A stretch of DNA of 33,688 bases, from the NCBI GenBank assembly GCA_019236695.1, contig JAFAIN010000341.1:1-33688 (forward strand), read 5' to 3'. Below are positions 1,024 through 6,114 of the stretch, in pieces. The stretch comes from Acidobacteriota bacterium. Lineage in GTDB: Bacteria; Acidobacteriota; Terriglobia; Terriglobales; Acidobacteriaceae. The notes under the pieces are model-generated. The model saw only the letters and a list, made by a program, of their open reading frames with translations. It made no database searches and had not been told where the DNA came from. Position numbers and translations under genes: made by a program. The stretch's first letter is position 1, and each line of letters begins with the position of its first letter.

Positions 1024-2205
1024 ATGCCGGCAGTCTACCTTGACAACAATGCCACCACCCCTGTGCTGCCTGAGATTGTGGAGGCGATGCAGCCTTTTTT
1101 CTCGGCGCAATTCGGCAATGCGTCATCCATTCACCGGCGCGGGCAGCAGGCAAGAGCGGCGGTGGAGCGCGCGCGGGAACAGGTGGCGTTGCTGGTCGGC
1201 GCCCGGCCCGCCGAGATCGTGTTCACCAGCGGGGGCACCGAAGGCGACAACCTGGCACTGTTCGGCCTGCTGGCCCAACTGAAATCCGCCGAAACCGACC
1301 ACATCATTACTTCGACGATCGAGCATCACGCGGTTTTGAACGCCGCTGAACGGTTGCGAGAACTGGGCGTTGAAGTAACGTTCGTCGGAGTGGATTCCGA
1401 ATGCCGGGTAGATCCCGGCGATGTACGGCGAGCTTTGCGGCCGAACACACGACTCATCAGCGTCATGGCCGCCAACAACGAAACGGGCGTGCTGCAGCCC
1501 TTACGGGAGATTGGCAGGATTGCGGCGGAAGCCGATGTCTGGTTCCACACCGATGCAGTACAGGCGGCGGGCAAGATGCGGTTGAACGTGGATGAAATCG
1601 GGTGCGATCTTTTGACCATTTCGGGCCACAAGATGCATGCGCCGCAGGGGATTGGCGCGCTGTATGTACGCAGGAACACGCTGCTGTCTCCGCTGTTGTG
1701 GGGCGGGCGGCACGAGCGGGGCCGCCGCGCCGGCACGGAGAACGTACCTGCCATCGTAGCGCTGGGCAAGGCAGCCGCGGTGGCCTCGGAGTGGCTGGAG
1801 GCCGGCGGGCCGGAGCAGATGAGCGCCGCACGGGACCGCCTGGAAAACGCGCTTGTGAGTGAGATTGAAGCGGCCCAGGTAAACGGGGGCGGCGCTCCGC
1901 GCGTGCCGAATACCACGAATATTTCGTTTGCGGCGGTGGAAGGCGAGGCCCTGGTAATCGCGCTGGACCTTAAGGGGCTTGCCGTATCGACCGGCGCTGC
2001 CTGTTCTTCCGGAGCCATCGAACCGTCACACGTGCTGACGGCCATGGGCCTGGCTGCGGGCCGCGCGCGCGGCAGCCTGCGATTCAGCCTGGGCAAGCAG
2101 ACCACCGCCCCCGACATTGACTATGCCATCCTCCTGGTTCCCGAAACGGTTGCCCGCCTGCGAGAGCTGAGCCCGATGTGGAAGCCCCGGCCGGCAGCGG
2201 TGTAG
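1024..2205 (+). CDS. nifS: Cysteine desulfurase, NifS/IscS family (class V PLP aminotransferase)
   Basis: A PLP enzyme of 393 residues that removes sulfur from cysteine as an enzyme-bound persulfide, feeding Fe-S cluster or other sulfur-transfer pathways. Seen: N-terminal YLDNNATTP, HH at 101-102 for cofactor stacking, Asp177 in HTDAVQ, the PLP lysine K203 in SGHKMHAPQG, and the catalytic Cys327 in STGAACSSG followed by EPSHVL. The short active-site loop places it in the NifS/IscS group rather than the SufS group. The ATG at 1024 follows GCGAGG. No scaffold (iscU), regulator (iscR) or thiouridylase is adjacent. NifS-like enzymes can also release selenium from selenocysteine for SelD, and a selenoprotein selD lies about 3 kb away; a functional link is only inference. 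The exact subfamily is not fixed by sequence alone. Confidence 0.95.
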   Translation: MPAVYLDNNATTPVLPEIVEAMQPFFSAQFGNASSIHRRGQQARAAVERAREQVALLVGARPAEIVFTSGGTEGDNLALFGLLAQLKSAETDHIITSTIEHHAVLNAAERLRELGVEVTFVGVDSECRVDPGDVRRALRPNTRLISVMAANNETGVLQPLREIGRIAAEADVWFHTDAVQAAGKMRLNVDEIGCDLLTISGHKMHAPQGIGALYVRRNTLLSPLLWGGRHERGRRAGTENVPAIVALGKAAAVASEWLEAGGPEQMSAARDRLENALVSEIEAAQVNGGGAPRVPNTTNISFAAVEGEALVIALDLKGLAVSTGAACSSGAIEPSHVLTAMGLAAGRARGSLRFSLGKQTTAPDIDYAILLVPETVARLRELSPMWKPRPAAV

Positions 2206-5067: not shown

Positions 5068-6114
5068 TTACTCCACCGAAATCACCGGACCGCGCTTTTC
5101 CCGAACTTCGCCGATCACCACGGCGCTTTCGCCGGCGGCCGCGATTCCTGCCACCAGTTCTCGGGCGCCCGCTGTGCCAACCGAGATCAGAAGGCCGCCA
5201 GCGGTCTGGGGATCAAAGAGGATGGTTCTAAGCTCCGCGGGCACGCTGCCGCCGAACTCGACCGCGCATTCGGCAAATTCGCGGTTGGCGTTGAGCCCGC
5301 CCGGTATGAAACCGCGGCGCACGCATTCCAGCGCGCCATGCAACAGAGGAACGGCCTCAGCGCGGATGACGAGGGACACACCGGAGGCGGCTGCCAGCTC
5401 GCGGGCGTGCCCGATGAGCCCGAATCCGGTGATATCGGTCATGGCGTGGACTGCGGGGATTTGAGAGGCTACCAGGGAGGGCAGGCGATTCAGGCGGGTC
5501 ATGCTCAGGGTGGCGGCCTCTACCCACGCGGGATCGGCCTGCTGCCGCTTGATGGCGGTCGATATGACCCCGGTGCCAAGTGCCTTGGTCAGGACGAGCC
5601 GGTCACCGGGTTGCGCGCCGCTATTGGCGAGGACGCGAGCAGGGTGCACGGTGCCGGTTACGGCATAACCAAACTTGATTTCGTCATCGCGAACACTATG
5701 GCCGCCGAGAACCACGCAGTTTGCTTCCATCATTTTCGAAAGGCCGCCGGCCAGGATCTGCTCGAGGACAGCGAGATCGCCCTTCTCAGGAAAGCACACG
5801 ATGGCGAGCGCGCTCAGCGGCCGCCCACCCATGGCATAAACGTCACTGAGGGAGTTGACCGCAGCGATTTGCCCGAAGGTTCCGGGATCGTCCACCACCG
5901 GAGTAAAAAAATCAACCGTCTGCACCAGAGCCAGCTCAGGGCCGAGGCGGTACACTCCGGCGTCATCGGCTTTATCAAAGCCGACCAGCACATTGGGGTC
6001 ATGCTGCCGGGCTAATTTCCCAAGCACCGCGTCCAGCGCCGCCGGACTCAGCTTGGAAGCTCAACCTGCAGCCTTGGCGTGCTCAGTAAGCCGAATTGGC
6101 CCTGTAAGGGTCAT
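5068..6114 (-). CDS. selD: Selenide, water dikinase SelD, selenocysteine-containing (in-frame UGA)
   Basis: SelD makes selenophosphate from selenide and ATP, the selenium donor for selenocysteine tRNA and 2-selenouridine. Reading from the ATG at 6114 through a UGA at 6061-6063 gives 348 residues, almost exactly the E. coli length (347). The N-terminus aligns well: IRLTEHAKAAG-U-ASKLSP against IRLTQYSHGAG-C-GCKISP. The UGA (Sec18) takes the place of catalytic Cys17 and the essential Lys is kept (K21). Downstream are conserved DDAGVY, VDFFTPVVDDP, AMGGRPL, GGHS, MTDITGFGL and DPQTAGGLL. A SECIS-like hairpin follows the UGA. The first non-UGA start (GTG at 6027) would remove the catalytic region and cannot be right. 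The second Cys of the usual U/C-G-C-K motif is Ser here. A TACAAT hexamer ends 6 nt before the ATG and there is no Shine-Dalgarno sequence. selA, selB and selC are not in the window. Confidence 0.95.
6020..6056 (-). promoter_or_regulatory. Bacterial SECIS element of selD (recoding hairpin)
   Basis: On the minus strand, starting 4 nt after the UGA, the RNA can fold into an outer stem CCAAGC/GCUUGG (6056-6051 with 6025-6020) and an apical stem GUCCGGC/GCUGGAC (6047-6041 with 6037-6031, one G-U pair) closed by a GGC loop. The loop begins 20 nt after the UGA and starts with G. Bacterial SECIS elements are described as having a G in the first positions of the apical loop, about 16-37 nt from the UGA. 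The element lies inside the coding sequence, as is usual in bacteria, and would be recognised by SelB. Folding was done by eye. Confidence 0.8.

Follow-up and report, generated by a model that had tools for sequence, protein, structure and literature searches.

Does the selD gene of a Terriglobales bacterium (Acidobacteriota) begin at the GTG codon from which a mechanical list of open reading frames starts it, or at an ATG further upstream, from which the frame passes through a UGA? The gene lies on the minus strand of a stretch of 33,688 nt, called the window here. The two starts give different proteins, and only the longer one contains the catalytic position. The coordinates of the features discussed below are collected in Table 1. 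As judged from sequence comparison, the gene very probably encodes a selenophosphate synthetase that carries selenocysteine (Sec) at its catalytic position.

Table 1. Features of the selD locus and the selC-like candidate of the same genome.
Feature	Position	Strand	Basis or remark
selD coding sequence	5068..6114	-	348 residues, Sec at 18, stop codon included; read-through translation, TIGR00476, 3u0o, Pfam
In-frame UGA read as Sec18, catalytic Cys position (putative)	6061..6063	-	TGA in 47 distinct Terriglobales genes; TGC/TGT in Cys homologues
Frozen-synonymous block, UGA-SelD genes only	6005..6066	-	Includes GGT codon before UGA; runs ~17 nt beyond hairpin
Upper hairpin of the SECIS, GUCCGGC-GGC-GCUGGAC, with GGC at 6038-6040 as apical loop	6031..6047	-	Fold and 20-sequence alignment
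Possible lower SECIS stem, 6051-6056 with 6020-6025	6020..6056	-	86.7% of cells paired
Candidate second hairpin UUGGG/CCCGG, 6019-6023 with 6007-6011	6007..6023	-	18/20 sequences pair, in an invariant stretch
selC-like tRNA-Sec candidate	G000:C227:5260-5349 (L003 1501-1590)	-	RF01852 alignment

Reading frame and start codon of selD

The minus-strand frame from ATG 6114 contained one TGA (6061-6063) and was otherwise free of stops over 348 residues. Coordinates and translation agreed in this with the first-pass annotation, which had proposed the read-through. The identity of the product as SelD, also proposed there, was borne out by the TIGR00476 (selD) profile (368.8 bits against a cut-off of 125, E 2e-110, residues 8-313) and by E. 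coli SelD (PDB 3u0o; E 3e-73, residues 6-343), and the Pfam domains AIRS and AIRS_C were found in the read-through protein. The similarity to the SelD models and to the E. coli protein already began upstream of the TGA, and the match to the SelD family, an alignment suggested in the first pass, spanned the UGA. The UGA corresponded to residue 18 and was aligned with the catalytic Cys of E. coli SelD, which lies in the motif GAGCGCK. The G-C/U-x-x-K motif was present in the window SelD, with AAG-U-ASK opposite GAG-C-GCK of E. coli, and this alignment agreed with the claim that the UGA occupies the catalytic Cys position between matching flanks.

The mechanical list did start the gene at GTG 6027, with a product of 319 aa, as had been predicted for automatic calls. 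Standard callers would therefore clip 29 residues, the catalytic one included. The existence of this GTG-started frame is the point in favor of taking the UGA as a true stop, or the gene as a pseudogene, so that SelD would lack its N-terminal loop. However, the residues before the UGA align to E. coli SelD, and the Cys homologues read continuously through the UGA point. Among 47 distinct Terriglobales UGA genes, these residues (RLTE, KAAG) were conserved in the protein, and most of their third positions were variable. This indicated that the codons ahead of the UGA belong to the translated SelD, and a start at GTG 6027 or a pseudogene is very improbable.

Recurrence of the UGA and constraint on the RNA

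An error of sequencing or assembly, with TGA in place of TGC or TGT in an ordinary Cys SelD, would be the simplest way to explain the stop, and the assembly is indeed a draft of 363 contigs. SelD was found over the cut-off in 132 of the 298 genomes of the order that were searched, and about 96 of these 132 had exactly one in-frame TGA in the gene (hand count), including the independently assembled G260 of the same genus. The first-pass annotation had considered relatives with a true stop and another start; instead, the relatives had the same UGA. It was also present outside the order, in other Acidobacteriota (Pyrinomonadaceae, Chloracidobacterium) and in Syntrophales, among named public genomes. 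The codon at the Sec18 position was TGA in 89, TGC in 12 and TGT in seven of 108 distinct SelD sequences. Because the UGA recurs in the genus, the order, other Acidobacteriota and Syntrophales, and because constraint acts at the codon level, sequencing error and pseudogene were both rejected. The former is the more remote of the two and hardly conceivable, since the synonymous freezing described below was confined to TGA genes.

Mean normalised synonymous entropy was calculated for the 47 Terriglobales UGA genes and for 15 Cys genes. It was 0.63 for codons 3-17 of the UGA genes, 0.162 for codons 19-34 and 0.733 from codon 35 on; of 189 equally long stretches downstream, none was as low as codons 19-34. 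In the Cys genes there was no frozen block (0.684 for codons 19-34 vs. 0.782 downstream). Selection on the RNA immediately after the Sec18 codon was seen only in genes in which this codon is UGA. The glycine codon before the UGA (6064-6066) was GGT in all 47 Terriglobales UGA genes and in 34 of 43 other UGA genes, vs. two of 20 Cys genes.

A SECIS-like hairpin with a G-initial loop, claimed in the first pass to lie 20 nt past the UGA, was placed exactly there by folding. The loop was 3 nt (GGC) and the upper stem 7 bp. Published constraints on bacterial SECIS elements (bSECIS) require a loop 3-9 nt long that has G in its first two positions, an upper stem of 4-16 bp and a distance of 16-37 nt from the UGA (PMC13188914), and the selD hairpin agrees with them in loop, G, stem and distance. 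The 49 nt from the UGA folded at -22.7 kcal/mol, whereas shuffled sequences averaged -15.9 (z -2.4) and did as well in 4 of 200 cases, so the fold score by itself beats chance only moderately. The strong evidence for a recoding signal is comparative and consists of the recurrence of the UGA and of synonymous freezing confined to UGA genes. In an alignment of 20 sequences, the upper stem was paired in 98.6% of cells and showed double changes from G-C to A-U in two outgroup rows. The outermost pair of the lower stem was absent in half of the sequences, and this stem is not kept in all relatives. A scan of the window with Rfam at gathering thresholds gave no matches and thus says nothing for or against the hairpin.

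Beyond the hairpin, the sequence CUUGGGAAAUUAGCCCGG, which reaches to about +58 nt, was almost invariant in UGA genes and could form a second hairpin. Its UUGGG/CCCGG pairing was nearly invariant, with few double changes, all from two outgroup rows, and because the stretch itself does not vary, the pair counts say little. The second hairpin and the lower SECIS stem are mutually exclusive. A 62-nt covariance model of the block (R1) matched selD only, with one match in each genome, if two marginal additional matches are set aside; in the window's genome it found selD alone, at the block position. Here, we tentatively propose, as a rather doubtful possibility, that the recoding signal of Terriglobales selD exceeds a standard SECIS and comprises a block of ~60 nt from the GGU to about +58, in which a hairpin of CUUGGGAAAUUAGCCCGG would compete with the lower stem and perhaps tune recoding, e.g., by selenium supply.

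The SelD of the window fell within the Terriglobales Sec group of a tree with 109 SelD rows, with weakly supported neighbours, and at least seven changes between the Sec and Cys states were required. Some Cys genes that fall inside the Sec group retained traces of the signal, with an intact hairpin relic after TGT in L039 and a partial one after TGC in L030. This agrees with an earlier study, in which SelD changes from Sec to Cys were frequent and relic SECIS structures persisted (PMC1794560).

One Cys-SelD labelled as uncultured Acetobacteraceae (L086, CALNAL010000349.1) sat inside the Terriglobales group of the same tree, and its position suggests a misbinned contig or a transfer.

Selenocysteine machinery of the genome

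The first-pass annotation had proposed that the organism decodes selenocysteine and that selA, selB, selC and further in-frame UGA genes be looked for. The window's genome contained selA (contig C27, 546.9 bits) and selB (contig C283, 349.9 bits). Two genes resembling formate dehydrogenase, each interrupted by a single TGA, were also found, one on C62 that was over the cut-off and one on C29 that consisted of fragments below the cut-off. This part of the proposal stood; for selC there was a candidate with a UCA anticodon that lacks 4 nt. Among 48 sampled SelD genomes, 47 had selB over the cut-off. The tRNA selenouridine synthase SelU was not found in the window's genome, and selenouridine is therefore no evident second use of selenophosphate there.

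The selC candidate aligned over its full length to RF01852 at 38.6 bits (cut-off 47) and had a GCCA end. G260, of the same genus, has an intact selC that was called by ARAGORN. Compared with it, the candidate has lost the 4 nt from the 3′ half of its T stem and has a poorer variable arm, and ARAGORN made no call on it. A direct DNA search of the window's genome, a draft that is 87.8% complete, found no further selC copy, and no synteny was found between the selC-like locus and the selC locus of G260. The other RF01852 matches that were checked in this genome were tRNA-Ser, Leu, Cys, Arg, Met, and Glu and were rejected as selC.

These observations bear on a third alternative, that this strain has recently lost Sec decoding by decay of selC, in which case SelD would have been a selenoprotein until recently and would now be truncated. 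The single selC-like sequence, with its T-stem deletion and further changes relative to G260, and the differing surroundings of the two loci are what such a loss would leave. However, the genes selA, selB and selD are all intact, as is the long frame of the formate dehydrogenase, and since the genome is incomplete, an intact selC may have fallen into a gap. We consider the recent loss unlikely, although less so than the two readings rejected above. The preferred explanation is that the copy is either a relic that accompanies an intact but unassembled gene, or an assembly error.

Five other genomes (G063, G080, G101, G004, and G013) had UGA-SelD and SelB and no UGA formate dehydrogenase or SelU over the cut-off; they may have few selenoproteins besides SelD, or none. 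Two genes from selD, the window encodes a class-V aminotransferase of the cysteine desulfurase type (1024-2205, plus strand). Cysteine desulfurase-type enzymes can deliver selenium.

Proposed decoding, significance and relation to known systems

By analogy with established bacterial Sec biology, SelA would convert Ser-tRNA-Sec using selenophosphate made by SelD, SelB would bind the hairpin after the UGA and bring Sec-tRNA to the ribosome, and the ribosome would insert Sec18 in the N-terminal selenium-binding loop. Since this insertion uses the selenophosphate of SelD, the enzyme would need its own product for its completion.

The arrangement itself is already well documented, and the UGA here is almost certainly read as selenocysteine. 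The main value of the result is therefore correct gene annotation. Because standard callers start at GTG 6027, the SelD proteins of many Terriglobales are probably mis-annotated, with the catalytic residue dropped. Once re-annotated, SelD marks the lineage as Sec-decoding. The UGA and Cys versions of the gene, with at least seven switches and relic hairpins, form a handy natural series on the loss of selenocysteine, and the extended constrained RNA block is amenable to a simple reporter test.

SelD with Sec has been described as one of the two most frequent bacterial selenoprotein families (PMC1794560) and as the second most widespread prokaryotic one (PMC13188914); the remark in the first pass that bacterial SelDs can carry Sec at this position was thus well founded. 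Like other bacterial Sec-SelDs (TIGR00476), the window gene has a UGA at the catalytic Cys codon with a bSECIS within 16-37 nt, and it co-occurs with selA, selB and a UGA-containing FdhA. No functional difference from them was seen, but the constrained RNA block in Terriglobales is longer than the hairpin alone. Cys-SelDs (E. coli 3u0o and those of other Terriglobales) share the domain pair and the N-terminal motif; they differ in having Cys for Sec and in an RNA block that is free to vary, with the intact relic of L039 as a retained hairpin. The 7-bp upper stem, the 3-nt GG-initial loop 20 nt from the UGA and a predicted energy below -7.5 kcal/mol are as in the bSECIS consensus. In contrast to that consensus, the constraint in Terriglobales extends to about +58 nt, with a possible alternative pairing.
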